Shown in pieces: positions 33,964-56,092 of a DNA stretch of 56,092 bases (the stretch's first letter is position 1; every line of letters starts with the position of its first letter). The notes under the pieces were generated by a model. The model was not told where the DNA came from. It ran no database searches and worked only from the letters and a program-made list of their open reading frames with translations. A program made the position numbers and the translations under genes. Source of the stretch: a virus. The DNA lies in the IMG/VR virus record IMGVR_UViG_3300037264_000469, positions 1-56,092 of that record. The stretch is one strand, 5' to 3'.

Positions 33964-34004
33964 ATACCTATATATATAGGAAAGAAATTCTTTAAACATT
34001 GGTT

Positions 34005-34682
34005 ATGAAGGTCATTTTTTGTATACCCGGAAATAACTTTTCTGGAAACTTTTTAAAATCTTGGACTTCTCTATTATTAAACTGTTTTAATAATAATATT
34101 GAGGTATTATTGTCTCAAAGATATAATCCCAACATTTATTATGTTCGATCTGAATGTCTTGGAGCAAACTTATTACGCGGAAAAAAACAAGTTCCATTTG
34201 ACAATAAAATAAATTATGATTATTTAATGTGGATTGATTCCGATCAAATATTTGCTCCAGAACATTTTTTCTCTTTATTATCCGATAATAAGGATATTGT
34301 AGGTGGATTATATCTAATGGAAGGAAGAACTCATTTTGCCTCAGTAAAAACGTGGGATGAGGATTATTTTAGAAAAAACGGAACATTTCAATATTTAACA
34401 CCAAAAGACCTTTCTAGTAATGAAGAATTAATAGAAGTTGTTTACAGTGGATTTGGATTCCTTTTAATAAAACGAGGCGTATTTGAGAGTTTAGAATATC
34501 CGTGGTTTGAACCTCAAACTATAAACTTTGGAAATGATATTGAAGATTTTGCGTCTGATGATATATCCTTTTGTATTAAAGCAAAAAAAGCAGGATATCA
34601 AATATTTGTAGATCCTAAAGTTATAATAGGACACGAAAAATCCGAAATTTTATACATTCCAAAACTTAACTTGGAAGCTTAA
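34005..34682 (+). CDS. GT-A glycosyltransferase (family 2-like)
   Basis: The N-terminus, MKVIFCIPGNNFSGNFLKSW, leads into a GT-A fold. The metal-binding DXD motif is in YLMWIDSDQIF (about 74-84), followed by DIVGGLYLMEG and a C-terminal acceptor region with ASDDISFCIKAKKAGYQIFV (Asp-Asp before SFC), then DPKVIIGHEK. This pattern is typical of small phage and bacterial glycosyltransferases that use an NDP-sugar. I use the ATG at 34005; a TTG six bases earlier is also in frame. It is on the opposite strand from the other glycosyltransferases, and its stop codon overlaps the convergent stop of the 34679-36982 gene. It may be regulated separately. The acceptor is unknown: DNA, LPS or virion protein. 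Confidence 0.8.
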   Translation: MKVIFCIPGNNFSGNFLKSWTSLLLNCFNNNIEVLLSQRYNPNIYYVRSECLGANLLRGKKQVPFDNKINYDYLMWIDSDQIFAPEHFFSLLSDNKDIVGGLYLMEGRTHFASVKTWDEDYFRKNGTFQYLTPKDLSSNEELIEVVYSGFGFLLIKRGVFESLEYPWFEPQTINFGNDIEDFASDDISFCIKAKKAGYQIFVDPKVIIGHEKSEILYIPKLNLEA

Positions 34683-36982
34683 ATAATAAAAGAATTAACT
34701 AAAAGTGGTTGAATTGATTTTATAACTTTCTCCACGGTAATAGATTTGGAACAAAGATGGATATTTGGAGTTCCTTTATATTTAGGACAATATTCCCAAT
34801 CTTTATCAAAAACTTGTCCTTTCCAATTAAAACATCCTTGGCAAATATCTTCGGGAGGATTAATATTAATTTTATTAGAAAACTCACACCACGGATAACT
34901 AAATCCAGATATCATGGCAACTTTTTTATTCATTCCCCAAGCAATCCATGCAACCCCGGATGGTAACCCTATAAAAAATTCACAATGGAACAAATATTTC
35001 TGAACATCTGCTACAGATTCTACATTTGCATTAATAACATTAGATATATTTCTATCCGTTTTGCTAATATTAACAACCCTATATCCTCTCTCATTCAAAT
35101 ATAAAGCCAAGTTCTCCCACCCCTCGGGGTAATGCCAATATTTACATAAAGATGTAGATTCTGTAGCAATGCAAATATATTTTTCTACTATTGGTCTTTC
35201 TACATTTGGAATATGTAATAGAGGTCGAATTTCTTTATAATCTAACCCCAAAATATCAGAAGCTACTTTTTGTAAGGGCATTTCATTCCAAGGATGTGGC
35301 GAGGTAGATCTATTTTCGGTATTAAAACATCCAATTGAATATGACGCAAATATGTTATTGATTCCACTACCAGGAGATATAAATTCTAAGTCTGGATATC
35401 TTTCTTTAAATAAATCATTATGAAAAGTAGATACAATTACATGACAGTTGTGTTTTTTTCTAAATTCTTCTACATAAGGTATCCACGCAATATTATCTCC
35501 AAGAGCAGCACTATCAAATCCAATAAAAACTCTTTGCCCAGTCAAATTTATTTTATCGTCAAAAATACATTGATTATTAGTTATTATTCTTATTTTCCAA
35601 TCCAAATAATACTTGGTAAATGGTCGCGTCCATTGGCTTGGCTTTAAATTAGCCGCGTAAGTAATAAAATTATTTTTTTGATCTATGAATTCTACTCTAT
35701 AATCTTGATTTGGATCTCCTCCTTTAAGTTCTATATAAGGGCCATCAACATAATGGCGAATTATTTGAAGTGGAGGGTGTTTTTTAGCGAAAACTCTTTC
35801 TTTTGCTGGAGTTATTTCATTATAAAAAGATATCAATTTATTTTTAAAAAAAACATTTTCGTCTTTTTTCTTTAAAATCTCTTCATTATAAATAATTTCG
35901 TTTATTTTTCTTGCCACTGGGGGGGTTTTAACACAGTGAAACATAAAAACATCATCTTTATTTCTCGGAATATACGATTGAGAAGGATATCCTAAACTAA
36001 AATTATTTAAGTCGTTTAAATGTTCTTTTTGAGAATTGAAATAATAAAAAAACTTTACATCCTTTTCGGTGTGTATATTAATGGACGCAAATGTAAAGAG
36101 TGCTTTTGTTTTTCTTTTCCACAACAAACAATTCAATAATAATTCATCATGAAGATATTCTTCTAAACGTATTTTTGCTATTTCGTTAGATGTGCATATT
36201 TCGTGCCATTCTTCCAGTAGATCTTTATGAGTTATATTGTAATGAATTACATTAGTCATTCCATGAGGCATAAATTGATTTTCCGGAGTTCCTAATTTTA
36301 AATATTCTCTTACCTTTGGTCCGGGAATATATAAAGTTCCATTCATTATAATATAATCCCACGCACTTTTTTGTAAAATTAACATATTTTCTTGCGGAGG
36401 AGAATAATTTACAAACTTTTCTATATTACTTCTAACCTGAATATCGGAATCCATAAATAAACCATTCGCAATTCCATCTTTTAAAGATTGTAATAATATT
36501 TTTGGTTTAGTTAAGAGAACCGTATCATGGTCGGGGCATTTCTCGTTATTATCAAAATATACATTTTCTAAATTATGACTTTTGATTTTAGAATGATAAT
36601 TTATAGTGTAATGATAAATTGGTGTATTAGTATATTTTCTTATTCCATCTATTAAACAAGATGTTATTTCTTCAAATTTGTCATTTGATATTAAAACTAT
36701 AGACGTAGAACTTTTATTTTTATTAATTTGATCTTTATATATACATGTACTATTTTGAAAAATATCTATATAAAATTCTTCGGTATTCCAAGTATTAAAA
36801 AAATTATTATATATAAAAGAAAAAGTTTTTTCTTCTGTCGGTAAAAAATCACAAACCTGAAAAATTACTTCATGAAAATATATATTTTTTACAGATACAA
36901 AACATTCTTTTAAAAATTTATTTGATAAATTTTTAACGCTTATTCTATTTTCAAGAAGTTTAATATCGAAGATTTTTTGCAT
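34679..36982 (-). CDS. Fusion: GT-A-like domain + autotransporter-type heptosyltransferase (TibC/BAHT-like)
   Basis: The N-terminal part (about 90-350) looks like a GT-A glycosyltransferase, with SIVLISNDKFEEITSCLIDG and a DXD-like LFMDSDIQV near 188-196. Residues 485-767 resemble bacterial autotransporter O-heptosyltransferases: VFIGFDSAALGDNIAWIPYV, EEFRKKHNCHVIVSTFHNDL, a WNEMPLQKVASDILGLDY block, and CKYWHYPEGWENLALYLNER, followed by FFIGLPSGVAWIAWG. The diagnostic iron-finger cysteines are present as CQGC (714, 717), EYC (732) and HLC (744). Known TibC-family enzymes add heptose to serine side chains of surface proteins. In this operon the obvious Ser/Thr-rich targets are the two fibres encoded upstream. 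The gene starts 23 bases inside the preceding gene and ends against the convergent 34005-34682 gene. GGGAG precedes the ATG. Confidence 0.78.
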   Translation of the reverse strand: MQKIFDIKLLENRISVKNLSNKFLKECFVSVKNIYFHEVIFQVCDFLPTEEKTFSFIYNNFFNTWNTEEFYIDIFQNSTCIYKDQINKNKSSTSIVLISNDKFEEITSCLIDGIRKYTNTPIYHYTINYHSKIKSHNLENVYFDNNEKCPDHDTVLLTKPKILLQSLKDGIANGLFMDSDIQVRSNIEKFVNYSPPQENMLILQKSAWDYIIMNGTLYIPGPKVREYLKLGTPENQFMPHGMTNVIHYNITHKDLLEEWHEICTSNEIAKIRLEEYLHDELLLNCLLWKRKTKALFTFASINIHTEKDVKFFYYFNSQKEHLNDLNNFSLGYPSQSYIPRNKDDVFMFHCVKTPPVARKINEIIYNEEILKKKDENVFFKNKLISFYNEITPAKERVFAKKHPPLQIIRHYVDGPYIELKGGDPNQDYRVEFIDQKNNFITYAANLKPSQWTRPFTKYYLDWKIRIITNNQCIFDDKINLTGQRVFIGFDSAALGDNIAWIPYVEEFRKKHNCHVIVSTFHNDLFKERYPDLEFISPGSGINNIFASYSIGCFNTENRSTSPHPWNEMPLQKVASDILGLDYKEIRPLLHIPNVERPIVEKYICIATESTSLCKYWHYPEGWENLALYLNERGYRVVNISKTDRNISNVINANVESVADVQKYLFHCEFFIGLPSGVAWIAWGMNKKVAMISGFSYPWCEFSNKININPPEDICQGCFNWKGQVFDKDWEYCPKYKGTPNIHLCSKSITVEKVIKSIQPLLVNSFII

Positions 36983-38543
36983 AAATTACTCCCATGTTAC
37001 TATCTAACATATTAACGTTAGTATCATATCCATAGTATGGCAACCATGTATAATCAAAATCATTTCTGGCTAATTTTTCTATTATTGATAAAACTTTATA
37101 ATTGGTATTATCATGAAATTCTATTATCATTTGTTTAATTCTACAAAGATTTTTATCAGAAATACTATCGAAAAACATATACTCCGCGCCCTCAATATCT
37201 ATTTTCATAAAATCCAGTATATTTTCTTTTATTTCATTTTCAAATAAAACATCTGGTGTTATAGTGGGAACCTTTATTGTATTTATTGTTTTTTGAGAAT
37301 CAATTATTGGAAATACGCTAGATACAACTGAAACATCTTCACATTGATAAAAATCTATTGAAGTCATACTGTCGTATACAGCATTAGGAATAATTTTTAC
37401 ATTTTTATAATGCCCTAGTATTTCGATCAACATACTTGTATTTCTGGGGTTGGCTTCCACCATATAAATTTTACAATTTGGATCTACTACGAAATTAATG
37501 CTTGCCATCCCAATATTTGTTCCAATATCCAAATAATTTTTTATATTTTTTAATTTATCATTTAAATTTACATCTTCATAAATTTTAAAATTAATTAAGG
37601 CATTGAAATCTTGTAGTTTTCTATGTTCTTTATATTTATTTCGCTTAAATTTATTACACAGTGGATGTTTTAAAGAAAAATCTTTAACATTGAAATTTTT
37701 TATTATTTTAGTTTTGGAATTTTTAGGAATAAATTCTACATAAAACCCATTTTGTAATTCGGAATTTATTGGTGGAAGTATCCACAAAGTTAATTTTGGG
37801 GGAATGACTCTATTTTTAAGGAAATAAACCTCGAGATCTGTGAAATAATCAAATATATAAATATCCCCATCAAACATAGCCTCAGACTCATTAGAAATAT
37901 AATATCTATTTTCTAATGCATTATATGAAACTTGAAGTCCAGAATAATCATATCCTACTTTATCTATTTTATTGTCACCAAAAAATTCTGCTTTATTTGG
38001 ATACGTAAATATTTTATGTTCTAGTTTTTTCTCTTTAATTGTTAAAACCCAGCACAATTCCAAAAGATTGCACTTGGCAAACATTTCTTCGATGGTCTTG
38101 TAAACCGGAAAGGTATCCAATAAGAAATTTACATTACAGAAAAAACTATTGGTTGCCAAAAAATATTCTCCCCACTGACAAGAAACAAAATCATATTTAT
38201 AATCTTTGATCCAGTCTTTAAAATGATGGATATCTACAATTTCACTATCATATGTTATTTTATATGCCCATTCTATTCCCACAAACCTTAAGTGTTCAAA
38301 GGACTGTCGTATTAGAACATTTTCTGCCACCCCATGAGAATATTTTCTATCATCAATTATATTTGACCTTTCGTATATAACATAATCACATTTTTCTTGA
38401 ATATCTTCTGGTATGATAGAATGAGAAGATAACACTAAATAATAATTTTCGGTAGAAATTTTATTTATCATATCACGAAGACATTCTAATCCTTCGTCTG
38501 AACTTTGATAATAAGTTATAACCCATCCTATTTTTTTATTCAT
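36960..38543 (-). CDS. Fusion: GT-A-like domain + FkbM-type methyltransferase
   Basis: Residues 1-200 resemble a GT-A fold with an N-terminal IGWVITYYQSSDEGLECLRD strand-helix and EWAYKITYDSEIVD (a possible DXE acid motif, about 92-105). The middle (about 220-330) is unassigned. Residues 336-527 are an FkbM-type SAM methyltransferase: NYLDIGTNIGMAS (336-348, SAM loop), YMVEANPRN, then FMKIDIEGAEYMF (445-457), the signature of this family. FkbM enzymes O-methylate sugars and polyketides, so this part probably caps a sugar hydroxyl on a glycan built by the neighbouring transferases. Its ATG overlaps the stop codon of the preceding gene by four bases (ATGA), so translation is coupled. Confidence 0.78.
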   Translation of the reverse strand: MNKKIGWVITYYQSSDEGLECLRDMINKISTENYYLVLSSHSIIPEDIQEKCDYVIYERSNIIDDRKYSHGVAENVLIRQSFEHLRFVGIEWAYKITYDSEIVDIHHFKDWIKDYKYDFVSCQWGEYFLATNSFFCNVNFLLDTFPVYKTIEEMFAKCNLLELCWVLTIKEKKLEHKIFTYPNKAEFFGDNKIDKVGYDYSGLQVSYNALENRYYISNESEAMFDGDIYIFDYFTDLEVYFLKNRVIPPKLTLWILPPINSELQNGFYVEFIPKNSKTKIIKNFNVKDFSLKHPLCNKFKRNKYKEHRKLQDFNALINFKIYEDVNLNDKLKNIKNYLDIGTNIGMASINFVVDPNCKIYMVEANPRNTSMLIEILGHYKNVKIIPNAVYDSMTSIDFYQCEDVSVVSSVFPIIDSQKTINTIKVPTITPDVLFENEIKENILDFMKIDIEGAEYMFFDSISDKNLCRIKQMIIEFHDNTNYKVLSIIEKLARNDFDYTWLPYYGYDTNVNMLDSNMGVIYAKNLRY

Positions 38544-40174
38544 ACTCTTTCCCCACTATAATCAATTTTATCCAAAAGAGAATATCCAGAAAATTGCATA
38601 GTCAAAATCTCATCAAACACGCCGGTCTTATATTTGTTCAGATTGTTCATGAATAGTAAATCAGTTACATTCCATGGTGCAGTAGCATACATATTTTTAA
38701 ATAATTCATACGACCTTCGCGGGATCAAATAAGCATGAGCAGCAACAAAGTGACTTACAATCATATAATCGTTTTTTTTCTCTAAAATATTTTCGTTGTG
38801 ATGATGAACAAATGAAAACATTATTAAATCTTTATTATTATTTAAAATTTTACATGCTTTATTTATGTAATTAACAAATTGATCTGTGGTTATTCTTATA
38901 CCACAATCACACTCAAACATCATTATAAAATCATATTTATCTTCGGCAATAGCCTCAAGTAATCCATTCTTATGTGCTAAATAACATCCATAATGTCCCG
39001 GTGTTAATTTTCCACCGGGTTCCATAGAAATAAGGTCTGGGTTAATGCAATTTTCTCTGGGTGGAAGTTCCTTATATGGTTTATTAAAACACATTTTATA
39101 ATCTATTCCATAGTTTTTCAATTTTGATAAAGTTTGAATAGATTTCATTTCTCTTTTTGCAAATACATCCGTTAAAAGATGCCGAGCAGTTATTTTATAA
39201 TCTGCGGAAGATAAATCAATTTTAACATCATATGAAGAAGTTTCATATAATAAATATGATTTTATCAGTTTGATATTTTTATCAAAATCATCAGTTAGAA
39301 ATTGTATATTTTTGAATTTAGATAGTCCATCGCCATAAGTGCTTAAATTATATGCTAAAATAGGAATATTATAACTATTTGCCTCTACCAAGGTAATCGG
39401 TCTATTTTCAAATTTAGAAGTAAAAAGGAATAAATCACCTGCTATTAAGAATTTATAAACATCGTCTCTTTCATTCCACAATACACAATTATTTGGCATG
39501 TCATCTAATAGTGGTTTCCAATAAGCCTCAAAATTCAAAGCTCTATTTCCTATAAAATGAAATATTATTTTTTTATCTTTTAATTTTTTGGCATACTCAA
39601 AGATTTCTTTTTGATTTTTTCCAGGTGTAAAAAGACCTACGTTTATAACATGAAAATACGACGGATCTAAACCTAACTCATCTAAATATCTTCGTTTTAA
39701 ATCGGCAGTAGAATGTGGAAATTCTAATACATCAAAATCATTGGTTGTTTTTATGTATTGTTCCATGTTACATCCAGAAACAAACATGGTTTTATCCGCC
39801 ATAACCCATTTATCATTTAAATTGAACATAGTTCCATGAGTAGTTTCACAAATTTTGTAGGAACTATTTCCATACAATCTTTTTAAAATATCATCGGTAA
39901 TAAACGTTTCTGGATATTCTTCAAAATGAACTATTTCTGGATTTATTTTTTCTATTATTGAAAATATTTCTTCTTTATTAGAAGAAAGAGTAATAAGTTT
40001 TTCTCGTATTAATTCTCTTAATTTGTTTTTTTGAATAACATATGCATCGGCTATATTATCCCATTCTACGATATAAACATCAAACTCATTTACAAGACAT
40101 TGTACCTTTTTCAAAAGATATTGAGGCAATCCGCCGGTGGATAAATGAGGTGTAATAAATAAAATTTTCTTCAT
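38540..40174 (-). CDS. Fusion: GT4-like (GT-B) + GT25-like glycosyltransferase
   Basis: The N-terminal domain (about 1-320) starts MKKILFITPHLSTGGLPQYL, the classic GT-B/GT4 opening, and has VGLFTPGKNQKEIFEYAKKL and the LVEANSYNIPILAYN region of the nucleotide-sugar site. Residues about 371-544 resemble family GT25: KLTPGHYGCYLAHKNGLLEA (390-409), then MMFECDCG (ECD at 421-423, a DXD-like acid site) and SHFVAAHAYLIPRRS (474-488). GT25 includes LPS sugar transferases and the animal procollagen galactosyltransferases; the substrate here is not known. It is in the middle of the glycosyltransferase operon, 49 bases after the GT4 gene. Having two enzymes in one chain suggests two consecutive sugar additions. 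Confidence 0.75.
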   Translation of the reverse strand: MKKILFITPHLSTGGLPQYLLKKVQCLVNEFDVYIVEWDNIADAYVIQKNKLRELIREKLITLSSNKEEIFSIIEKINPEIVHFEEYPETFITDDILKRLYGNSSYKICETTHGTMFNLNDKWVMADKTMFVSGCNMEQYIKTTNDFDVLEFPHSTADLKRRYLDELGLDPSYFHVINVGLFTPGKNQKEIFEYAKKLKDKKIIFHFIGNRALNFEAYWKPLLDDMPNNCVLWNERDDVYKFLIAGDLFLFTSKFENRPITLVEANSYNIPILAYNLSTYGDGLSKFKNIQFLTDDFDKNIKLIKSYLLYETSSYDVKIDLSSADYKITARHLLTDVFAKREMKSIQTLSKLKNYGIDYKMCFNKPYKELPPRENCINPDLISMEPGGKLTPGHYGCYLAHKNGLLEAIAEDKYDFIMMFECDCGIRITTDQFVNYINKACKILNNNKDLIMFSFVHHHNENILEKKNDYMIVSHFVAAHAYLIPRRSYELFKNMYATAPWNVTDLLFMNNLNKYKTGVFDEILTMQFSGYSLLDKIDYSGERV

Positions 40175-40223
40175 AACTTATTCGGTCATATATAGTATTT
40201 AAAACGGATTAAATCAACGAAAA

Positions 40224-41408
40224 TTATAATTTTTGACTTTTTATAATCCTTAAAAGGTTGTCTACAGTATTTTCTTCCGTAAGATGTGAAACTTTCTTAT
40301 TAGATAGCAACCCCTTTTCAATAATTTTGCTTTTATTATTATAACAATATCTAAAATTTTCTACAACACTTTTTTCATTAACTTTAGCCCAAAATCCTTC
40401 GGTAGGACCATACATTCCTAATGCTAATTCTTCTTCATAATCTATTGGAATTCCTACGTGTTCATCAAAAAATTCAGTTATTCCGCCATAATTTGCGGCC
40501 ATAACTGGTCTACCACACATCATTGCTTCGTGTTGCATAAGACCCCAACCTTCAGAATAAGACAAAGAGACGAAAACATCAAGACTTGCATAATAATCTG
40601 CCATTTTTTCTTCGGTATAATCATCAAATATTATTTTAATTCTGGAATCTGCATATCTCGGAAAGGATGAATACTGTTTGATATCAATTTTCACTCTTAA
40701 TTCTACATCTTTAATTTTTGGATTAAATGCTTTGCAAAAACATTCTATTGTATATTCCAATCTTTTTCTTGTTTGGTTTTGTGCTTCGCCACATCCAAAT
40801 ACCATTTTGGATTCAGTATGGGGAGGTCTATAAAAAAACGTATTTGGATTGATTCCAAGAGGTACAACATATATTGGAGAAGTTGTTCCGCTCTGTAAAA
40901 AATTAATACGATTCCAATTGGATGGAACTAATATTCTATTGTTGGGGTGGTTAAATCTGTTTACAACCATTGCGTCTAATTGAGAAGATTCCCACATCGT
41001 ATATATAAATTTTTTTCTTTTTAAATTGGAATTTAATAGGTGATTTTTTAATTGAAAATCCAGTGATAACGGGCAAACAACAAATTCATCCGTAGATAAC
41101 AATAAATCTCTTCCCACTGATCGAATTAAAGATGCATATTTTCCAACAACATTTGTATCAGTTGGAAGAATATATAAATCAACCCCCCTTAATAAAAAAT
41201 TTCTTATAAATACATCTATTATTTTACCATATCCAGAAATTGTATTAAGTGGAGATTTAAATAATAATATCACATCTTCTTCACTCGGTCGTTGTAACAT
41301 TTGTTGTGGCACGGGTGTACCCAAATTATTTTTACATAATTTATTTTTATGGGCAACAAACGATGAACTCAAAGCATTTGTAATATCAGATATAACATAT
41401 TCTATCAT
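40224..41408 (-). CDS. Glycosyltransferase family 4-like
   Basis: A GT-B fold glycosyltransferase. The conserved parts are the linker phrase TSPIYVVPLGINPNTFFYRP and the C-terminal EX7E-type region SLSYSEGWGLMQHEAMMCGR with PVMAANYGGITEF, which binds the nucleotide sugar. The N-terminal 40 residues (EYVISDITNALSSSFVAHKN) are unlike the family and may be an adaptor. It is the first glycosyltransferase gene in the operon after the fibres and the small 41412-41714 gene, from which it is separated by three bases. The likely role is extension of a glycan, with the acceptor inferred to be a virion protein or a cell-surface glycan. Length 394 is normal. Confidence 0.85.
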   Translation of the reverse strand: MIEYVISDITNALSSSFVAHKNKLCKNNLGTPVPQQMLQRPSEEDVILLFKSPLNTISGYGKIIDVFIRNFLLRGVDLYILPTDTNVVGKYASLIRSVGRDLLLSTDEFVVCPLSLDFQLKNHLLNSNLKRKKFIYTMWESSQLDAMVVNRFNHPNNRILVPSNWNRINFLQSGTTSPIYVVPLGINPNTFFYRPPHTESKMVFGCGEAQNQTRKRLEYTIECFCKAFNPKIKDVELRVKIDIKQYSSFPRYADSRIKIIFDDYTEEKMADYYASLDVFVSLSYSEGWGLMQHEAMMCGRPVMAANYGGITEFFDEHVGIPIDYEEELALGMYGPTEGFWAKVNEKSVVENFRYCYNNKSKIIEKGLLSNKKVSHLTEENTVDNLLRIIKSQKL

Positions 41409-41411
41409 AAA

Positions 41412-41714
41412 TTATGGAGGATTACTTCCTGACGAAGAAAGATCATCTATATCGTCTGATGGAATAAATTCTGCTCCAATGGGAATATCATCAAACGAAT
41501 TATGATCTCTAATATATTCACGAATTGAAGGTTTTAATGTAGAAAATACAATTTGGCATACTTCTGTGACGCTTTTTCCAGAACAATCCGAAATTGGAAT
41601 ATGATGTTCAAAATATCGTATTTGTCTATTTGAAAGTATAACATCAAATCCTATTATTCGACGAAGATTATGATCTTCGTATCGTTTTAATATTAATTTA
41701 TAATTTTGTGGCAT
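41412..41714 (-). CDS. Conserved small protein between fibre and glycosyltransferase genes, 100 aa
   Basis: I choose the ATG at 41714 (MPQNYKLILKRYEDHNLRRI), 7 bases after the fibre stop. A GTG at 41759 would add 15 residues and overlap the fibre gene. The protein has a compact alpha/beta region (IGFDVILSNRQIRYFEHHIP, then SVTEVCQIVFSTLKPSIREY) and a disordered acidic C-terminus (SDDIDDLSSSGS). I do not recognise the family. Its position suggests a fibre-associated role, such as a chaperone or adaptor, which is inference. Confidence 0.6.
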   Translation of the reverse strand: MPQNYKLILKRYEDHNLRRIIGFDVILSNRQIRYFEHHIPISDCSGKSVTEVCQIVFSTLKPSIREYIRDHNSFDDIPIGAEFIPSDDIDDLSSSGSNPP

Positions 41715-41721
41715 ATGTTTG

Positions 41722-44700
41722 TTAATTAAATAGTTGAACGTATCGCGTTCCGACTCCACTAATAATTATTGCTAACCATCCATAATGAGTAGTATGTGCT
41801 CCGGTTCCATCAGTGGAAGTGTTGGAACTAGCAACCGTAATAGATCCAGCCATATTTATAGATCCGTTAATATATAGTTTGTATCCACCCGGAGAGGCAC
41901 TAATTCCTACACCAGATCCATCGTCTTGAAGAATTGCACTACTGGCAATTGAAGTTCCATCAAATCTTAATACATATCCACTAGAAAACGAAGTATTATT
42001 GGTTCCGCCGATTGATATCGCAAATGGCGTAGCATATGTTGCACCACTAGTTCCCGATGTTCCTTTCGTTCCACTAGTACCCGATGTTCCATTATTACCT
42101 GCTGGTCCTTGTCCACCATCTATACCAGATGTTCCTGAGGTTCCCGATGTTCCTTTCGTTCCACTTGTGCCTGAAGATCCACTTATTCCAGATGTTCCTG
42201 AGGTTCCCGATGTTCCTTTCGTCCCACTTGTTCCAGATGTACCACTTACTCCTGATATACCCGATGTTCCGCTTGTTCCACTATATGCAAATGCGAAAGA
42301 AGCAGTTAAAGCGTGGGATGCAGAAATAGAATTAATAGCTAAACTTGCAGTTTCATTTATTGCTGGCACTTTTATAGTTGAAGAAGCCCATACTGGTCCG
42401 GTAAATATATCTGCTTCTGTTTTATGTACTATACTATCAAAACTAGCAGTCGTATATCCAATACAAACATCGCGCAATTTTATTGTAGGAACATCCCACT
42501 GAGTAGATACCCCCGCCTGATTTTGAATATAAATAATGGGACGCCCATCACTACCAGAACCAAAACTTGCTGTATAAAGTGAAGTATGAGGATTTCCTAA
42601 TACAAATGCATTTGTATTAAACCAACGATTTGGCGTTGCTGAAGTACTACCATTTCTTTGCCCAACTAAATAAAATGAAAGGGCATTAATAGTTGAAGTA
42701 TAATTATAAACATCAACCCATCCGGCAAATGTAAATGGATCTGTTAAATTTGGAAGTTGAATTCTTAAATATCCTGTTCCAATATATAGTCTACTAATAA
42801 ATCCTCTTTCAGGAATACTAATAAATGACCCGGTTGGAATAAATCTACTTGACACCAAATCCTCTCCCAATCCATGCCCACCAACTCCAACATGAGAATT
42901 TAAATTTAAAGAAGAAGATAGTTGTAAACTGTGAGATGCCGCATTATCTATTGTAATTATAGATCCACTATTAAATATAAATGTACTATTATCAATTTGG
43001 CGTAAAGAAGAACTTACTAATGTAGTTCCATTCCATTTTGGAATGTAATCATCAACCGGATGTCCTACATAAGATGCTGTTTGGGCAAATAAAGATGTAA
43101 TAGCAATACTTGCTGTATCTGTATTTCTTCCATCTAATACAGTCATGCCGAATGAAGTGGAAACGAAGTAATTAGTACTTGGAAATATATCTATCTCCAA
43201 ATTATTATTCAAGAATTCGTAGCTTTGTGATGTGTATCCAAAACAAACATCACGCATTCGGATCATGCTGAAGTTCCATGTCGTACTTGCTCCTCCATTA
43301 CCACCGATGTAGATACCCGGTCGTCCATCGCTACCAGTCCCAAAAGATGCTGTCAATCTATAGGATGTGTTGGTAGTATGGAATTTACTAGCGATATGTA
43401 ATGCACTAACATCTTGCCAGATGGTGTTGCCAGCTACAAGGTTAGAAGGTGTGCCGCTAACATATATTGAAGATCCTCCCCGATTGGAATTAAGAGAATA
43501 TAAATCAATCCAAGCAGAGAAGATACATGCTCCACCCTGTAAAGGAGGCAATTGAATTCTTAGTGCTCCGATGGGGGATTCCCTATCGGATAAGAATCCT
43601 TTTTTCGGAATAGTAATAAACGATCCAGTCCCGAATAATCCGCGTATGCTTCCACTTTCTTTTGTTCGTGCCCCACCACCGATGCTTACATTATAATCTA
43701 AATTCAATGAAGCGGATAATAATAATGCAGTACTTGATGCGCTATCTATGGTGATTATTGAAGCACTATTAAATATAAATGTACTATCACCAACTTGGCG
43801 TAAGGAAGAAGTTACTAATGTAGATCCATTCCATCTTGAAATATAATCATCAACTGGATTTCCTACATAGGATGCTGTTAATGTCCACGATGCAGTTGTC
43901 GCATATGAAGATGTTCCAATGAAAGACCCGTGAAAAGAACCGGTTCCAAACGCGGATGCTGAAACAGGACCCCCAATATGTAATTTTGCTCTCGGAATTA
44001 ATGTTCCTATACCAACACTAGAATTAGTATCTATTGCTAAATATGTTGAACCAGATGTTACTAATTGACCAAATCCCAGATTGCTTCCGGAAACATAACC
44101 CGTATTTAGATTATTTGTATATTGAATTGTTGGACTTGCATCTAATGCTACAATTTCACATTTAGCTATATCTATTTCAAAATAGGTATTAATTGGAGTA
44201 TTTTCTATAATATAAAAAAAAGCAGTAATCGCAAATGACCCCACATTTCCTATAACTTGTAAAAATTCATAATAAGACCATTCTTTTGTAAGAAATTTTG
44301 ATGTAAGCCAATATCCAGATGTTCCAGTTCCTACCGCATTACTAGCAAAATTCCAAGATTTATCCCCTAAAGAACCAGTATTCATTCTAGCCCACATTTT
44401 ATATAACAACCTATCACCGGGCTTATATTGAAATCCACTGATGGAACCCGTTAAAGATGCACCAATGCCAGCATAAAATCCACCAAATCCAGGAGTAGGA
44501 GTTACATTATATGTTCCTGTTCCATCATATTTAACTTTAAGTATTCTGCCACTAGAATTTGGTACACTACCACTAATTGAACTAGTATCCACTGTAGAAG
44601 ATATAGTTACTTTACCACTCGCAGAATTATCATATACTGCCCAACCTGTAATTCCATCTAAAAATTCGGTGTTTCTGTTTGTTATTCTTCCGGATAATGA

Positions 44701-45696: not shown

Positions 45697-45720
45697 AATT
45701 TATTCTTTCATTTTCCAGAA

Positions 45721-48700
45721 TTACATTATTTTTATTGATGCTTTAACTGCCCATCCAGCAGTGTTACTTGACCTAGTAACTAACCCCACATCCCCCGGAC
45801 CTACCGTATTAAGTTTAATTGACATAGATAAAGCATTGGTATTACCAATTTCAGCGGTGGTTACTTCATTGTATTCAATATTATCATCATTCCAATTTGC
45901 TACCATCATACCGGCTCTACTATTAGAACCCGATGCCACGCTGTATTCAAAGTAACCAGATCTATAAGAACCAGTGTTAGTATAAAACATTACAAAATCT
46001 AAGTTAGGTGAAGGTATTATTATACTTGCATAATCAATCTTTATATCACCAAAATTAAAATTATTATTGGTAAAATGACTTGATGATACCGCATAACTCG
46101 AAGATAAAGAACTACTTGCCCACGAGGCCGACACAGCATATATACTTTGAGTAGAATATATTGACACTTTGGATTTTTCACTCCACGAAGATGTTCCATG
46201 AAATGATCCAGTTCCAAAAATAGATGCTGATATTGCCCCTTGAACATGAAATTTTGCTTGTGGACTTGATGTACCAATACCTAAGTTTCCACCTAGGATA
46301 TACTGGTTATCAGAATGTCCTAATGCCACAATTGTATTGCTACCTGAAACAATTATGAACTTACTGGTAGGATAAAATCTAAATTGGTTTGGATTATTGT
46401 AAACATTTATCACCATATTACTGTGGCTTACAAATGGCGTAATGAATGCATAGGTTATTGAACCTAATCCACCATAAGAACCAAATATTGAAAATGACTG
46501 TGATAATGGATTTGCTATTCCTACTTGACCTACTGAATAATATCTTGCCCATCCTCCATCACCTAGCGTTGCAATTTGAACGCCATAAGGTGCATGAGAA
46601 GAAGATAGAACTAGCCCACCGTATGTAATATGTGGTGCGGTTGTAGAACCAAAATCTCTAATTGCACCAATACCAAGTTGATTATCGGTTACCCATCTTG
46701 CAGTATAATTCGTACTACCACCCAAGACTTCATTAGATATATCAGAATAACTAGATGTTACTGCGTAGCTTCCTGTAAATGTATAACTTGCCGTTATAGT
46801 ATATGACGAACTTCTAGCATATGATGCGGTTATGGCGTATGAAGCAGATTCATATGGTAAATAAGCTTCTATTGGAAGCGTATCACTATTTATTTCTTCA
46901 ACCCGTGGTCCCCAAAAATAAACTACACTGCTGGTTGTTGTATTATAATATTCAGATACTCTCTGTGTTTGAACATTACCTGTGCCTATTTTATATTCTA
47001 CACCAGATGTTCTGTCAAATGAACCGGATTGAGTATATACTCCGCTTTTTAATAAGGATGATCCAGTTGAATCCGTGGCCCATAAATAACCTACAAATAA
47101 TAACCACTGATCTTTCGGGAGCGACGATGCATTTCTTTGTAAGAAGAACGGATTGCCATTAACCGTATTATTTAAATTTAATGTATTAGATGTAGAAGCA
47201 CCTAAAAAGATAGTTCCGTTATTTGGTGGTGTATTACTTAAAATTTTAACCCAAACAGAATATCTATGAGATTTACTAGGAATAGCAGGTAAAGTAGCAT
47301 CCCATCCGCCATTAGCAGCGAAATCTCCTGCTGATGTTACTTTCCAAATTAATGATCGTTGTCCATATGGATCAACATCATAACTTCTTGTGTTTTCATT
47401 ATTAGCACCAACTTGGATAAACACTGTTTCGACCATTGGTCCACTTCCACTATACCACTGAGTATCTGGAACCAAATTTCTGGCAACATATCCCGTTTTA
47501 TCAACAAGATATTGAGAAGAAGAAAGCGTAGTGGTTACTGTAACTTTATCACTATTACCATAAATTTCCGACGTTGAACTTAATTTATTATTGTTGACCC
47601 ATTTAATATAATAATCATTAGTTCCTTCTCCAACATAAGATGCAGTTAATGCATAAGATGCAGATATACAACAAAGCGCACAACTTGCAAAACTGGAAGT
47701 TTTAGAATATGATGAACTTAATGTATATGATGAACTTAATGTATATGATGAACTTAATGTATATGATGCTGATAAGGCATATGAGGCCGATAAGGCATAT
47801 GAGGCCGATAAGGCATTTAACGCATAAGAAGCAGTTCTGTTTGTATGAACTTCACCGCTAACATCAACAGTTAGTAAATCAATGTCAGATAATTGTTGTA
47901 TTAATCCTGTTAACCTTAGTGGATCAGAAGAGGCAGATATATGTAATTTGTTAGTGGGTGTTGTTGTATTTATTCCTACATTTCCATCTATACCTTTAAT
48001 AGTCATCCATGTATTGTAATCAGTCAAGCTGGATGAAATAAAATCAAATTTTAGATTAAAATCATTGCTTGCTGCTGAAATTTGATCAGTAGATACCCGC
48101 ATTCTTTCGAACGATCCATATTTAAATGCTAATCTTGCATCATTTCCAGTAAATCCAGAAGCTAGATATGGAGATTCTATAATCATTCCTACGGAACCGC
48201 TTTGAGAAAATATCCTCATTCCACTTCCACTTACATCTAAACTATATGAAGGAGCAACTTGTCCTGTGCTTATTCCTATAAATCCTCCGTTTGGATTTAA
48301 TATCAAAGGAAATCTTGAAGATAGATCTATCTGGCTAGTAAATTGAAGCCATGCCCCCAATCCACTATGCATAGATCCGATGTCTAAAACTCCATTGGAA
48401 TCGGTATGTCTTAGTCTCAATATCGATCCGGTTTGGATTTTTCCTGATGCCGCAGGCCACGCACTTGGAAGTGTAGAAACTACATCTAAAGATGAAGATG
48501 GATTAGTTTGATTTACTCCAATAAAATTATTAGTTGGGTATTCCGTCATTATGGAATCGCCAATAGTAGTTGGAGAAGTAAATTTTACTATTCTATTTGT
48601 GGTTCCACTTATTGCTACTGATGTTCCACTTGTACCAGACGAACCGCTTACTCCTGATGTTCCGCTTGTACCAGATGTGCCTTTAGTTCCACTTGTACCA

Positions 48701-51700
48701 GACGAACCACTTACTCCTGATGTTCCGCTTGTACCAGATGTGCCTTTAGTTCCACTTGTACCTGAAGAACCACTCACTCCTGATGTTCCAGATGTACCTT
48801 CTGTTCCACTTGTTCCCGATGTTCCACTTGTTCCTGAAGAACCACTCACTCCAGATGTACCACTTGTACCAGATGTGCCTTTAGTTCCACTAGTTCCCGA
48901 AGAACCACTCACTCCTGATGTTCCAGATGTACCTGAAGTACCATCCATTCCGGATGTACCACTTGTACCAGATGTGCCTTTAGTTCCACTAGTTCCCGAA
49001 GAACCACTCACTCCTGATGTTCCAGATGTACCTGAAGTACCATCCATTCCGGATGTACCCCCTGTACCACTTGTACCAGATGTGCCTTTAGTTCCACTAG
49101 TTCCCGAAGAACCACTCACTCCTGATGTTCCAGATGTACCTTCCGTTCCACTTGTTCCCGATGTACCTTTTGTTCCTGATGTACCCGAAGTACCTCTTGT
49201 TCCACTTGTACCCGACGAACCACTTATTCCTGATGTTCCACTCGTTCCACTTGTACCTTCTGTTCCACTGGTGCCTGATGAACCACTTACTCCACTTGTT
49301 CCTGATGTTCCTTTTGTTCCACTTGTACCCGACGAACCACTTATTCCTGATGTTCCACTAGTTCCCGATGTACCTTCTGTTCCACTAGTTCCTGATGTAC
49401 CTTCTGTTCCACTGGTGCCTGATGATCCACTTACTCCACTTGTTCCTGATGTTCCTCTTGTTCCACTTGTACCGCTTGTTCCAGTCGTTCCTGATGTTCC
49501 TTTTGTCCCACTTGTACCTGATGTACCACTTGGAGTTATAGCATACGATGCTGTTATTGCATGACTCGATGTTAATGCATATGATGCAGATGTTGATCCT
49601 GATGCATATGATGCCGATACAACAAATGTTAGAGATTGAGTTACATCGAAGAATTTAAAATAACTTCCACTTAAAGTATACGAGGCTGATAATGCTTCCT
49701 TTGCAAATAATGTATAGGATGCCGTTTTACTTGAGTGAACAACCCCACTAACATCAATAGTTAATAAATCAATATCTGATGATTCTATTACATTTTGTAA
49801 TCGTAATGGATTAGCGGCAGAAGATACATGTAATCTGTTGGTTGGAAGTATCGTGCCAATTCCTACATCTACTCCATCTTCATAAATTAAACTCGTAGGA
49901 GTTAAGGTATTGTTTTGCCATTTTGGAATGTAATTATCAACACCTTCTCCGATATATGATGCACTCAATGCATATGAAGAACTTAGTGAAAACGAAGAAC
50001 TTAGTGAAAATGAAGCGGTTAATGAAAATGAAGAACTTAATGAAAATGATGTGGTTATTGGATAAGTAGATCCGGATACAATAAATGCACTTGTTCCTGA
50101 TGTACCTCTTGTCCCACTTGTTCCTGATGTTCCTCTTGTTCCACTAGTTCCTGAAGAACCACTTACTCCAGACGTTCCAGAAGTACCAGCAGTTCCGGAT
50201 GTTCCACTTGTTCCTGAAGTTCCGTTTGTTCCACTTGTTCCTGAAGAACCACTCACTCCAGATGTTCCAGATGTGCCTTTAGTTCCACTTGTTCCAGATG
50301 AACCACTTATTCCTGATGTTCCACTAGTTCCCGATGTACCTTCTGTTCCACTGGTGCCTGATGATCCACTTACTCCACTTGTTCCTGATGTTCCTCTTGT
50401 TCCACTAGTTCCTGAAGAACCACTTACTCCAGACGTTCCAGAAGTACCAGCAGTTCCGTATGTTCCACTTGTCCCAGAAGTACCTTTTGTTCCACTAGTT
50501 CCTGAAGAACCACTTACTCCAGACGTTCCAGAAGTACCAGCAGTTCCGGATGTTCCACTTGTTCCTGATGATCCACTTATGCCAGATGTACCTGAAGTAC
50601 CAGCTGTTCCCGAAGTTCCTGTTGTACCGCTAGTTCCCGATGATCCACTCACTCCTGATGTTCCCGAAGTACCAGCAGTTCCTTTTGTTCCGCTCGTTCC
50701 AGATGAACCACTTACTCCAGATGTACCGGATGTACCAGCAGTTCCTGATGTTCCTTTTGTTCCGCTCGTTCCGCTTGGAGTTATAGCATATGAAGCACTT
50801 ATTGAATATGATGCCGTTTTATTTGTATGAACAACTCCATTGACATCAACAGTTAATAAATTAATATCGTTTAGTTCTCTTAACCCAGCCAGTTTCAGTG
50901 GATCTTGCGATGAAGACACATATAATTTATGTAATGATTCGGTTGATCCAATTGATAAATTTGACCTGATATAAGATGGACTTTCGTTGATAGAATATAT
51001 TGCCCATGGATTATCTACTGTTCCCGGCTCAAACTTATTTGTATCAATAAAAATACCATAACTATTTTCTATATATGATGCACTCTGACAGAATGGAGTT
51101 ATGTAAACTCCATAAGATCGTGAGATACTACCAGTAATCCATTCATCTTCTGAACTTAATCCAAATTGAACTCTAATTCCATATAATCCCTCAAGCCTTC
51201 CTTTATGATCAGTTCCTAGTGTAGATTGAACATTTAATGCAATATAATGTCCACTATTAGTGATAAAATTATTAACATATGTATTACCTAAATTGTTTTC
51301 ATATGACGACCAATAATAAGTTCCATCTATAGTAGCTCTGAAAGCCGGAATCGTTCTAATACTAGAAACATCTCGATCAAATACAAGACCCTGAACATCC
51401 AAAATTGCATCTTCTACATCAAACGAATTTATTCCAACAAACTGACCATGATTGCTTATGGCAGAAACTTGAGTCAATTTATTATTAAGCCAGTAAGGTA
51501 CAAAATAATCTGATCCTTCTCCAATATAAGATGCGGTTAATGCGTAAGATGCAGATAGAGCATTCAATGCCCAAGATGATGTAATTGGATATAATGATCC
51601 AGTTGTGAAATTAGCACTTATTCCACTTGTGCCAGATGAACCAGCCGTACCAGATGTACCTTTTGTTCCACTAGTTCCTGACGTACCTGTTGTTCCACTC

Positions 51701-54700
51701 GTACCCGATGTACCTTTTGTTCCACTAGTTCCAGATGATCCACTTACTCCCGATGTTCCACTTGTTCCTGATGTACCCTCTGTACCACTTGTTCCACCTG
51801 TACCACTTGTACCACTTGTTCCCTCTATTCCGGGAATTCCGGGATTACCATCTACTCCAGACGAACCAGCCGTTCCACTTGTTCCGGATGTACCCTTTGT
51901 TCCTGAAGTTCCGCTAGTTCCAGATGTTCCCCTTGTACCACTTGTACCTTCTGTGCCACTTGTACCAGAAGTACCTTCTGTGCCACTTGTACCAGAAGTA
52001 CCTTCTGTGCCACTTGTACCTGATGATCCACTTACTCCTGATGTTCCCGATGTACCTTTTGTTCCAGATGAACCAGCAGTTCCCGATGTACCTTTTGTTC
52101 CTGATGTTCCAGATGTTCCACTTGTACCCGATGTTCCAGATGTTCCTTCCGTTCCACTTGTACCTGATGTTCCTTCTGTTCCACTTGTACCCGATGAACC
52201 ACTCACTCCAGATGTTCCTGAAGTACCCGATGAACCTCTCGTACCACTTGTACCCGACGAACCACTCACTCCTGATGTTCCTGATGTTCCACTTGTTCCA
52301 GAAGTACCAAAAGTTCCCGATGTTCCACTTGTTCCAGAAGAACCACTTACTCCAGACGTTCCAGAAGTACCAAAAGTTCCCGATGTTCCACTTGTCCCAG
52401 AAGTACCTTTTGTTCCACTCGTACCTGAAGAACCGCTTACTCCGGATGTTCCAGACGTTCCGCTTGAGCCACTTACTCCAGATGTTCCGGATGTTCCTCT
52501 TGTTCCTGCTGTTCCACTTGTTCCCGATGTACCTTCTGTCCCACTTGTTCCCGATGTACCTTCTGTCCCACTTGTTCCCGATGTACCGCTTGTTCCAGAA
52601 GAACCACTCACTCCAGATGTACCACTTGTTCCTCTCGTACCACTCGTTCCGCTTGTACCACTCGTTCCGCTTGTTCCTTTCGTACCACTCGTTCCGCTCG
52701 GAGTTATAGCATACGATGCCGTTGTTGCATGACTTGAAGTTATTGCATGAGACGCCGACAATGCGAATGACGAACTTAGTGAAAATGAAGCAGTTTTATT
52801 TGTATGAACAACTCCATTGACATCAACGGTTAATAAATTAATATCGTTTAGTTCTCTTAACCCAGATAGTTTTAATGGATCTTGTGATGAAGACACATAT
52901 AATCTATGTAATGACTCGGTTGATCCAATTGATAAATTTTCTCTTAAATAAGACGGACTTTCATTAATAGAATATAATGCCCATGACTGACTTACAGATC
53001 CACTTGTAAATTCATTTACATTAATAAAAATTCCAAAGCTATTTTGAATATAATATGCATTATTGCAATATGGAGTTATATAAATTCCATAAGCATAATC
53101 AGCACTTCCCGTAACATATGAAGTAGTAGAATTTAATCCAAATTGAACTCTAATTCCATATATTTCTGAAATATTTCCTCTATGATCATTTCCTAATGTA
53201 GCTTGAACATCTACCCCCATATAATATCCACTACTCGTAATAGAACTACTAACGTAAATGTTTCCTGGGTTAATGGTATATGCTTTCCAATAATAAGTTC
53301 CATTGGTATCAGCTATAAAGGCTGGAGTTGTTTTAATAGCATCGGAATCCTGATTGTATTCTATTCCTCTAACTTCTAAGAAAGTAGTCGAGTCAAACGC
53401 ATTTATTCCTACATACTGATTGTGAGTACTTATAGATGAAGTTTGAGTCAGTCTATTATTAAGCCAGTGTGGAACGAAATAATCGGTTCCTTCACCAATA
53501 TAAGATGCAGTTAATGCATATGATGCACTTTTGGCCCAAGATGCTGTTATAGGATATAATGATCCGGTTGTGAAATTAGCACTTATTCCACTTGTTCCTG
53601 ATGAACCACTTATTCCACTTGTCCCAGACGTTCCCGATGTTCCTTTCGTTCCGCTTGTGCCAGATGTACCCGATGTTCCTTTTGTTCCACTTGTACCAGA
53701 CGTACCACTTGGAGTTATAGCATACGATGCTGTTATTGCATGACTTGATGTTAATGCATATGATGCAGAGGTTGATCCTGATGCATATGATGCCGATACA
53801 ACGAATGTTAGAGATTGAGTTACATCATATAATTTAAAATAACTTCCACTTAAAGTGTACGAGGCTGATAATGCTTCCTTTGCAAATAATGCATAAGATG
53901 CTGTTCTACTTGAATGAACAACTCCACTAACATCAATGGTCAATAAATCAATATCTGATGATTCTATTACATTTTGTAATCGTAGTGGATCAACAGTGGC
54001 AGATACATGTAATCTGTTGGTTGGAAGTATCGTGCCAATTCCTACATCTACTCCATCTTCATAAATTAAACTTGTAGGAGTTAAGGTGTTGTTTTGCCAT
54101 TTTGGAACGTAATTATCAACCCCTTCTCCTATATATGATGCACTCAATGCATATGAAGCGGATAATGCCCATGATGACGTAATTGGATATGATGACCCGG
54201 TTGTAAAATTAGCACTTATTCCACTTGTTCCGGATGAACCTGCTGTTCCACTTGTACCTGATGTTCCTCTTGTTCCACTCGTTCCAGATGATCCACTCAC
54301 TCCAGATGTTCCTGCGGTTCCTGCTGTTCCACTTGTACCAGATGTTCCCGATGAACCTCTTGTGCCACTTGTACCAGATGATCCACTTACTCCTGATGTT
54401 CCCGATGTTCCTGATGTGCCACTTGTGCCCGATGAACCAGCCGTTCCGCTTGTACCAGACGTACCTTCTGTTCCACTTGTTCCAGACGTGCCTTCTGTTC
54501 CACTTGTTCCAGACGTGCCTTCTGCACCACTTGTACCAGATGTACCTCTTGTGCCACTTGTGCCCGATGATCCACTTATTCCAGATGTTCCTGATGTACC
54601 TTTTGTACCCGATGTACCAGATGTTCCTGAAGAACCACTTACTCCAGATGTTCCGCTTATACCGGATGAACCAGCAGTTCCACTTGTTCCTGCCGTTCCA

Positions 54701-56092
54701 CTTGTCCCCGATGAACCACTTACTCCAGATGTTCCGCTTATACCAGATGAACCAGCAGTTCCACTTGTTCCAGATGTTCCTCTCGTTCCACTTGTACCAC
54801 TTGATCCACTTATTCCTGCTGTTCCACTTGTACCACTTGATCCACTTATTCCTGCTGTTCCCGAAGTCCCTTCGGTTCCACTTGTTCCAGATGAACCACT
54901 TACTCCAGATGTGCCGGATGTACCAGCGGTTCCCGATGTTCCTTTTGTTCCGCTTGTTCCAGATGAACCACTTATTCCTGAAGTACCCGATGTACCTCTT
55001 GTTCCTGATGTACCTGAAGTACCTTCTGTTCCTGATGTACCTGAAGTACCTTCTGTTCCTGAAGTACCCGAAGTACCTTCTGTTCCACTTGTTCCTGATG
55101 ATCCACTTACTCCGGATGTTCCTGATGATCCACTAATACCAGATGTTCCTGATGTTCCTTTCGTTCCGCTTGTGCCCGATGTTCCTTTCGTTCCACTTGT
55201 TCCGGATGTACCGTCAATTCCACTTGTACCAGATGTGCCTTCTGTACCACTTGTGCCAGATGAACCGCTTACTCCGGACGTTCCGCTTGTTCCACTTGAT
55301 CCACTGATTCCAGATGTTCCCGAAGTACCAAAAGTACCTGATGTACCTGAAGTACCTCTTGTTCCTGATGTACCTGAAGTACCTTCTGTTCCTGATGTTC
55401 CTTCCGTTCCTGATGTACCTGAAGTTCCCTCCTGTCCACTTGTACCAGATGTTCCTTTAGTTCCGCTTGTACCAGATGTTCCCGAAGTTCCTCTTGTTCC
55501 ACTTGTTCCGCTTGATCCACTTATTCCTGACGTTCCTGATGTTCCACTTGTACCAGATGTGCCTTCTGTACCACTTGTGCCAGATGAACCGCTTACTCCG
55601 GACGTTCCGCTTGTTCCACTTGATCCACTGATTCCAGATGTTCCCGAAGTACCAAAAGTACCTGATGTTCCCTTTGTTCCACTGGTTCCCGATGTTCCCT
55701 TTGTTCCACTGGTTCCCGATGTTCCCTCTGTTCCACTGGTTCCCGATGTTCCCTCTGTTCCACTGGTTCCCGATGTTCCCTCTGTTCCACTCGTACCTGA
55801 TGATCCATTCGCTCCCGATGTTCCTGAAGTTCCACTTGATCCACTGATTCCAGATGTTCCCGAAGTACCTGATGTGCCTTTTGTACCACTTGTACCCGAT
55901 GATCCACTTATTCCAGATGTTCCTGATGTTCCTTTCGTTCCACTTGATCCACTAATTCCTGATGTTCCCGATGTTCCCGATGTACCCGCCGAACCATCCG
56001 TTCCACTTGTACCTGAAGTACCTTCTGTTCCCGACGTTCCTTCCGCTCCCGATGTTCCACTTGTGCCCGAAGTACCTTTTGTTCCTGATGTA
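45721..56092 (-). CDS. Giant collagen-like tail fibre, at least 3456 aa (N-terminus beyond the window)
   Basis: The frame is open from the TAA at 45721 to the right edge; I read every codon from 54301 to the edge and found no stop. The Val at 54300 is a GTG inside a repeat, not a start. Five Gly-X-Y blocks (at least 620, then about 40, 360, 230 and 300 residues, N to C) are mostly GTSGTSG, GVSGSSG, GTKGTSG and GTEGTSG, with almost no proline and occasional Lys, Arg or Glu. Between them are globular modules: A-type with [20 protein letters not shown] and B-type with a NGTYYW core, in the order A-B-B-A. The C-terminal 950 residues hold further SASYALS repeats and stalk/tip domains. It probably forms a long trimeric fibre. 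Downstream glycosyltransferases make glycosylation plausible. Confidence 0.88.
48615..49531 (-). repeat. Collagen-like Gly-X-Y block 5 (C-terminal-most)
   Basis: About 915 bases of 9-base units encode GTSGTSG-type sequence, with K, E and M substitutions at intervals. It separates module A2 from the C-terminal domain. The unbroken 3-base periodicity and synonymous-codon variety indicate a translated repeat, not a CRISPR or satellite. On the other strand this generates long false Val-Pro-rich reading frames. Confidence 0.9.
49532..50090 (-). repeat. Globular module A2 of the giant fibre
   Basis: A region of about 560 bases, close to module A1 at 53711-54212. The DNA of the first 190 bases is nearly identical, with only scattered substitutions. 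The encoded block includes [20 protein letters not shown] and a [18 protein letters not shown] segment. A2 has extra SLSSSFS beta repeats that A1 lacks. Confidence 0.85.
50092..50776 (-). repeat. Collagen-like Gly-X-Y block 4
   Basis: About 685 bases of Gly-X-Y repeat with frequent [15 protein letters not shown] units, lying between modules B2 and A2. A Gly-Thr-Ala variation (GTAGTSG) recurs here more than in the other blocks. Confidence 0.9.
50777..51612 (-). repeat. Globular module B2 of the giant fibre
   Basis: Encodes a [16 protein letters not shown] segment, a [14 protein letters not shown] core, [18 protein letters not shown] and a YAINES-type end with [17 protein letters not shown]. 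It pairs with B1 (52700-53580) at clear but lower identity than A1/A2, so this duplication is older. Confidence 0.85.
51613..52699 (-). repeat. Collagen-like Gly-X-Y block 3
   Basis: About 1.1 kb of Gly-X-Y repeat. Near its C-terminal end it contains one proline-containing stretch, [15 protein letters not shown], the most classic collagen-type sequence in the protein. It lies between modules B1 and B2. Confidence 0.9.
52700..53580 (-). repeat. Globular module B1 of the giant fibre
   Basis: Encodes [55 protein letters not shown] and an [19 protein letters not shown] end. It pairs with B2. The shared order and length show tandem-type duplication followed by divergence. Confidence 0.85.
53581..53710 (-). 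repeat. Collagen-like Gly-X-Y block 2 (short)
   Basis: A block of about 43 residues ([13 protein letters not shown] type) between modules A1 and B1, far shorter than the other collagen-like blocks. The length differences suggest expansion and contraction by recombination. Confidence 0.9.
53711..54212 (-). repeat. Globular module A1 of the giant fibre
   Basis: Encodes [20 protein letters not shown], the [17 protein letters not shown] block and [20 protein letters not shown], ending in a [18 protein letters not shown] repeat. It is nearly identical in DNA to the start of A2 about 4.2 kb away, a likely recent duplication. Confidence 0.85.
55218..55344 (-). repeat. 127-bp perfect direct repeat, copy 1
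   Basis: Bases 55218-55344 are identical to 55542-55668, offset 324 bases (108 codons, 36 Gly-X-Y triplets). Identity at synonymous positions shows a recent duplication inside the collagen-like block, not selection on the protein. Confidence 0.88.
55542..55668 (-). repeat. 127-bp perfect direct repeat, copy 2
   Basis: Second copy of the 55218-55344 repeat. Recombination between the two copies would remove or add exactly 108 residues in frame. Confidence 0.88.
55664..55798 (-). repeat. Five tandem 27-bp repeats
   Basis: A 27-base unit (three Gly-X-Y triplets) recurs with starts at 55664, 55691, 55718, 55745 and 55772. The first two carry CCCTTTG and the next three CCCTCTG (encoding Lys and Glu versions), with the last unit diverging at its end. 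It is typical of slipped-strand expansion and a good candidate for copy-number variation. Confidence 0.88.

Follow-up and report, generated by a model that had tools for sequence, protein, structure and literature searches.

The stretch of DNA analysed here, in the following called the window, is a linear virus record of 56,092 bp (IMGVR_UViG_3300037264_000469), for which the detected genes for sheath, tube, baseplate hub, UvsX, SSB and polymerase indicate a T4-like tailed phage as the source. On its minus strand a gene cassette is found that may enable the phage to glycosylate its own tail fibre. Read from right to left, it comprises two fibre genes (fibre1 and fibre2), a small gene of 115 aa, a GT4 glycosyltransferase gene, a GT4 + GT25-like fusion, an FkbM methyltransferase fusion and a GT-A + TibC fusion. 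Beyond the latter follow a convergent GT2-like gene, which overlaps the TibC fusion gene by 4 bp, a 107-aa gene and then the sheath gene. The distances from fibre1 to the TibC gene amount to 24, -38, 3, 49, -4 and -23 bp (negative values denote overlaps), so that the coordinates bear out the initial annotation, which had described same-strand genes with gaps of at most about 50 bases or overlaps.

Fibre1 (45721..56091, minus strand) comprises at least 3456 aa, its 5' end being cut by the contig, and contains 517 Gly-X-Y triplets in 7 runs, the longest with 208 triplets. Such long unbroken runs place it in the class of collagen-like proteins, and a chance origin of the repeats can be rejected, since a shuffled sequence averages 0.06 triplets in such runs. 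The X position is occupied by Thr in 394 and the Y position by Ser in 400 (77%) of the 517 triplets. Proline was found at 2 of 1034 X/Y positions, which confirms for fibre1 the near absence of proline described before. For fibre2 (41722..45696, minus strand, 1324 aa), which matches PF01391 (1.2e-10) and PHROG tail-fibre families, just 26 triplets near the C-terminus were counted. Since nearly all of the collagen-like sequence is thus held by fibre1, only this one of the two Ser/Thr-rich Gly-X-Y fibres claimed initially is strongly collagen-like. Fibre1 is also the probable main acceptor.

The interpretation further depends on the C-terminal domain (residues ~409-767) of the 767-aa GT-A-like + TibC-type fusion protein (34679..36982, minus strand). 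This domain reached 268.9 bits with the NCBIfam equivalog TIGR04414 (cutoff 200) and an E-value of 3.9e-43 with TibC in the PDB (4rap), and its fold matched TibC with an E-value of 2.8e-31 and a target TM-score of 0.85. The catalytic residues Asp110, Thr226, Lys230 and Trp305 and the four iron-binding Cys named for TibC (PMC4358343) are all kept in the window enzyme as D496, T610, K614 and W679 and, in the four-Cys iron finger, as C714, C717, C732 and C744. Judged from its sequence and fold match, the domain surely belongs to the TibC-type protein O-heptosyltransferase family. The GT-A half of the protein received weak fold support, so that the GT-A+TibC-like fusion proposed before holds firmly for its TibC part. 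With the BAHT enzymes (TibC, AAH; TIGR04414; PMC4358343) the window enzyme shares the fold, the family model, the catalytic and iron-finger residues and an adjoining Ser-rich repeat protein, but it is fused to a GT-A-like domain and linked to collagen-like repeats instead of autotransporters. No autotransporter acceptor was found near the TibC gene in the window, where its neighbours are tail fibres and tail genes.

A single-sequence search gave two viral relatives only, while a profile search detected a TibC-type domain in at least 589 viral contigs. The best 80 of these profile matches and the two single-sequence matches formed 57 clusters at 80% identity, for which loci of up to 10 kb on each side of TibC were compared with random viral loci of at least 10 kb. 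For fused TibC, a Ser/Thr-rich Gly-X-Y protein was present in the locus of 25/30 clusters compared to 1/43 random viral loci (p 1.4e-13), and for stand-alone TibC in 7/27 clusters. A count of 16/22 TibC contigs with Gly-X-Y repeats derives from hand-picked contigs whose loci were partly known beforehand and is not used as a rate. An association was also observed from the side of the fibre. Among viral contigs of at least 30 kb chosen solely by a GTSGTSG-type DNA pattern (GTS for Gly-Thr-Ser), TIGR04414 was present in 22/40, compared to 2/25 contigs chosen by an arbitrary 14-mer (in one of these two, a GTS fibre lies near the TibC gene) and 0/21 contigs chosen by proline-containing Gly-X-Y repeats (Fisher 1.5e-4 and 9e-6, respectively), although this enrichment may partly reflect shared ancestry because the groups were unmatched for phage type. 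Based on the 0/21, collagen-like fibres in general can be rejected as the cause of the association.

The gene order is retained in relatives as well. One contig (L043) keeps the order of the window cassette with a 183-triplet fibre, GT4/GT25 (49%), FkbM fusion (42%) and TibC fusion (39%), while another (L002) shows the order fibre, GT4/GT25, GT4, FkbM, TibC, sheath, tube and hub. In the isolated Microcystis phage Mel-JY01, the fibre adjoins a GT4+TibC fusion. Transferase genes beside a structural gene are therefore a recurrent arrangement, and the comparison of related genomes suggested in the initial annotation speaks for the co-occurrence as far as the TibC-type enzyme is concerned. The fibre gene of Mel-JY01 (L004:2-3052, PP395634.1) spans the start of the record and is annotated only in part; the deposited annotation places genes antisense to its repeats.

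A comparable pairing was found outside of phages. In a sample of 80 bacterial and archaeal TibC-homologue loci, a Ser/Thr-rich Gly-X-Y protein was encoded nearby in 15, all of them among the 18 closest, and in 0/62 of the others, which include Bradyrhizobium, Pandoraea and Acetobacteraceae. Nine of the 15 (L565, L567, L568, L572, L575, L576, L579, L580 and L581) are apparent chromosomal two-gene units from Methylococcaceae, Polaromonas and other Gammaproteobacteria, in which a lone TibC homologue stands with a small secreted or lipoprotein-like GTS/GSS-repeat protein (signal peptides and lipoboxes judged by eye). Several of the remaining loci resemble phage contigs inside metagenome-assembled genomes. 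In a maximum likelihood tree (quick search, SH-aLRT support only), a branch with a support of 100 parts 23 classical enzymes, TibC included, from 76 phage/Gly-X-Y-linked ones. The catalytic Asp, Trp305 and the four Cys are conserved in 75/75 members of the latter clade, which differs from the BAHT enzymes in this separate position, in the lack of conservation of Arg286 and apparently of the thumb residues, and in the HldE halves that are adjacent in some members.

These HldE halves may point to the sugar donor. In 11/57 clusters they immediately follow TibC; the 348 control loci contain none. Their best matches are TIGR02199 (heptose-1-phosphate adenylyltransferase, ~100 bits) and TIGR02198 (heptose-7-phosphate kinase, 102-119 bits), with scores under both equivalog cutoffs. 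A contig from the random sample (L650) combines a 276-triplet GTS fibre with a convergent operon of GT4-TibC, cupin, HldE-II and HldE-I. HldE makes ADP-D,D-heptose. This compound is the donor used by TibC (PMC4358343).

Altogether, the predicted gene functions and their recurrence make it likely that the phage uses the cassette to glycosylate its own collagen-like tail fibre. The TibC-type domain would act in the cytoplasm of the host, where it would attach heptose to serines within the Gly-Thr-Ser repeats, with ADP-heptose as the probable donor. Since the bacterial units have TibC alone, this enzyme would add the first sugar, which the GT4, GT25-like and GT-A-like domains would extend, while the FkbM domain may O-methylate and thereby cap the glycan. 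The residue modified by TibC is Ser and not Thr (PMC4358343); a Ser-only transfer at the Y positions would give ~400 sites per chain. This would yield a virion fibre that is collagen-like, nearly devoid of proline and densely glycosylated. With somewhat less confidence, but still on balance, we favour a clade of heptosyltransferases common to phages and bacteria that recognises Gly-Thr/Ser-Ser repeats and not autotransporter beta-helices; phages, some with their own ADP-heptose genes, would build densely O-glycosylated collagen-like fibres with it, and some bacteria would use a two-gene version to modify repeats of secreted proteins or lipoproteins. The claim that the TibC-type enzyme and its neighbours modify the fibre thus gains comparative support from the co-occurrence, the collinear cassette, the ADP-heptose genes and the bacterial units, whereas for all transferases together an action on the fibre is what we infer. 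The same applies to the acceptor, the sugars and the order in which they are added, and to whether the glycan serves stability, protection or adsorption. By analogy, the sugars may stabilise a putative proline-free helix, for which Riftia provides a precedent (PMC11766948), or may serve in shielding or adsorption; the role in fibre stability or in hiding from defence proposed initially found little or no support.

Several observations weigh against a glycosylation of the collagen-like fibre. Arg286 of TibC, which contacts adenine, is Val in the window enzyme, which leaves the donor uncertain, and no HldE gene lies within the window, so that the system would depend on the host or on genes outside the fragment. 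The equivalent position is Arg in 23/23 classical enzymes and in 19/75 of the phage/Gly-X-Y-linked clade (with gaps in the alignment there). Since mutation of Arg286 impairs TibC (PMC4358343), the window enzyme is called TibC-like and not a classical BAHT. As the HldE-linked TibC-type enzymes also carry Val at this position, its loss need not exclude ADP-heptose, which weakens the idea of Arg286 as a requirement for this donor in the clade. The thumb segment, a beta-hairpin for ring assembly, comprises 20 residues compared to 30 in TibC, and the thumb residues of the TibC dodecamer appear to be missing; together with the beta-helical fold of the known TibC substrates (PMC4358343), this means that substrate recognition must differ. 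In one TibC subclade, the TibC gene immediately follows that of a giant fibre nearly lacking Gly-X-Y triplets, and one contig of this subclade (G128) carries two GTS-rich fibres elsewhere. In addition, TIGR04414 was not seen in 18/40 GTS contigs, and the contigs chosen by sheath or UvsX similarity, a small fragmentary set (TibC in 4/32, Gly-X-Y in 5/32, both in 1), show by themselves no association. Either partner can stand alone in fragments, as in G046, whose 91 kb encode the transferases but lack such a fibre, and a strict one-to-one pairing of TibC and fibre is therefore rejected. Transferases without a Ser/Thr-rich fibre, which the initial annotation had named as a refutation, thus occur in some fragments; the pairing is strong but not obligate.

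A different explanation would be that the transferases remodel lipopolysaccharide (LPS) or other surface glycans of the host, e.g. for a block of superinfection, and that the proximity to the fibre merely reflects a shared host-recognition region. Although transferases encoded in the pelagimyophage host-recognition region have been interpreted as modifying the host surface (PMC7029224), the GT4 and GT25 families include LPS enzymes and fragments of some phages have transferases without a GTS fibre, the TibC domain passes the cutoff of the protein-O-heptosyltransferase equivalog and reaches only 15 bits with the LPS heptosyltransferase I model. Moreover, the association is specific to Ser/Thr-rich and not to proline-containing Gly-X-Y fibres, and the bacterial homologues adjoin single secreted GTS proteins. 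This main alternative appears unlikely for the cassette as a whole: it fits poorly to the TibC domain and may hold for the extending enzymes.

Similarly improbable is an action of the TibC-type enzyme and its companions on another virion protein or on non-collagen Ser/Thr-rich fibre segments, with the GTS repeats not being the main acceptor. Against this possibility speak the enrichment with GTS contigs and the bacterial units, whose TibC homologues have no neighbour in common other than the GTS protein. In its favour are the beta-helical substrates of TibC and the subclade downstream of giant fibres nearly free of Gly-X-Y (of which at least one contig has GTS fibres elsewhere), for which a modification of non-collagen fibre parts is most conceivable. 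A modification of phage DNA bases, which is often performed by phage glycosyltransferases according to work cited in PMC12619734, is very improbable here, since the TibC family acts on proteins (PMC4358343), the bacterial homologues adjoin secreted repeat proteins and no base-hypermodification gene was noted among the annotated window genes in a search that was not exhaustive.

Both virion glycosylation and BAHT enzymes are already known; the literature searched gave no report of the two being combined on collagen-like repeats in phages or bacteria. The recurrence of the TibC-fibre pairing in many aquatic phages and some bacteria suggests an undescribed route to glycosylated collagen. We know of no TibC-type enzyme for BclA. 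This collagen-like protein of Bacillus spores has O-glycans in its repeats, as predicted for the window fibre, but the sugars differ (PMC8968730). In Riftia cuticle collagen, sugars on hydroxyl residues of Gly-X-Y repeats are likewise associated with stability, but this is an animal protein with glycosylated Thr, while in the window fibre Y is Ser and X is Thr (PMC11766948). With L230, which has a GT25-related domain, Mimivirus modifies collagen-like proteins of its own that are poor in proline; in contrast to the Ser/Thr repeats and remote GT25 of the window, L230 hydroxylates Lys and glucosylates hydroxylysine (PMC9614988), and no lysyl hydroxylase was found in the window cassette. For mycobacteriophages, phage transferases put glycans on capsid and tail tube (Freeman et al. 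2023, as cited in PMC12619734). These phages share with the window phage-encoded transferases for virion proteins, here predicted from genes, and differ in the target, which would here be a collagen-like fibre served by a TibC-type enzyme. No published link of TibC to collagen or of phage HldE to fibres was found in the literature searched, which excludes most subscription papers. If the fibre is indeed glycosylated, a known protein O-heptosyltransferase fold would gain a new substrate class, the working of Ser/Thr-rich, proline-poor collagen-like phage fibres would become easier to explain, and one group of glycosyltransferases in phages, commonly taken for LPS modifiers, would seem to act on the virion instead. 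The idea lends itself to a direct test, since the pair is present in an isolate, Mel-JY01, and the two-gene units of bacteria are small.

Among the companions of TibC, the GT4 and FkbM assignments are sure. The GT4 protein (40224..41408, minus strand, 394 aa) matches PF13692 (3.5e-12), PF00534 (1.4e-10) and phrog_2170. The following GT4 + GT25-like fusion (38540..40174, minus strand, 544 aa) matches PF00534 (2.9e-10), while its GT25-like half is a remote relative that reaches 20.2 bits with PF01755 (E 6e-4, gathering cutoff 24; best family-alignment member 9e-6). An identity as procollagen galactosyltransferase, to which the GT25 domain had been linked, is not supported, since the match to procollagen galactosyltransferase 1 has an E-value of 0.45. 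The GT4+GT25-like gene is the commonest companion of TibC in relatives, with relatives in 79 loci. For the FkbM fusion (36960..38543, minus strand, 527 aa), the methyltransferase was recovered (PF05050 1.1e-14, TIGR01444 7.9e-16), and the GT-A N-terminal half proposed before was not confirmed, as the structure model showed a low pLDDT and was too poor to use. The claimed fifth transferase (33999..34682, plus strand, 227 aa) is indeed convergent and belongs to phrog_1574 (5.6e-62), with weak Pfam matches to GT2-type transferases; its membership in the cassette is uncertain. The small gene (41412..41759, minus strand), which shares 38 bp with the end of fibre2, showed no Pfam, NCBIfam or PHROG match and no relative among the relatives' loci compared.

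Some additional features were observed in the relatives. The giant fibres upstream of TibC (L044:3-6914, L049:3-6962 and L028:2-5803) contain an apparent intein-like (Hint) segment near the C-terminus, as judged by eye. Upstream of a TibC fusion and a collagen-like fibre lie a radical SAM gene and three genes with a weak resemblance to Fe(II)-dioxygenases (L078:3353-6103), which may modify the fibre further. In two contigs (L093:9062-9907 and L096:9063-9908), the TibC fusion is followed, just before the sheath, by another TibC-like gene of reduced length (281 aa in L096). A phage-like contig binned as Rickettsiaceae (L571) carries the same kind of GT-A+TibC fusion as the window (37%), together with a GSSGTS fibre and a gene related to one in the window; the assignment is due to faulty binning or hints at the host. 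In two bacterial units (L576:9153-9983 and L581:9093-9935), a DUF6502 (PF20112) gene directly precedes TibC near the GSS lipoprotein, and a gene of similar size takes this position in a third (L580:9151-9984). Within the window, two homing-endonuclease-like genes (phrog_3339; 17936-19441 and 28433-30244) are located amid the tail genes.
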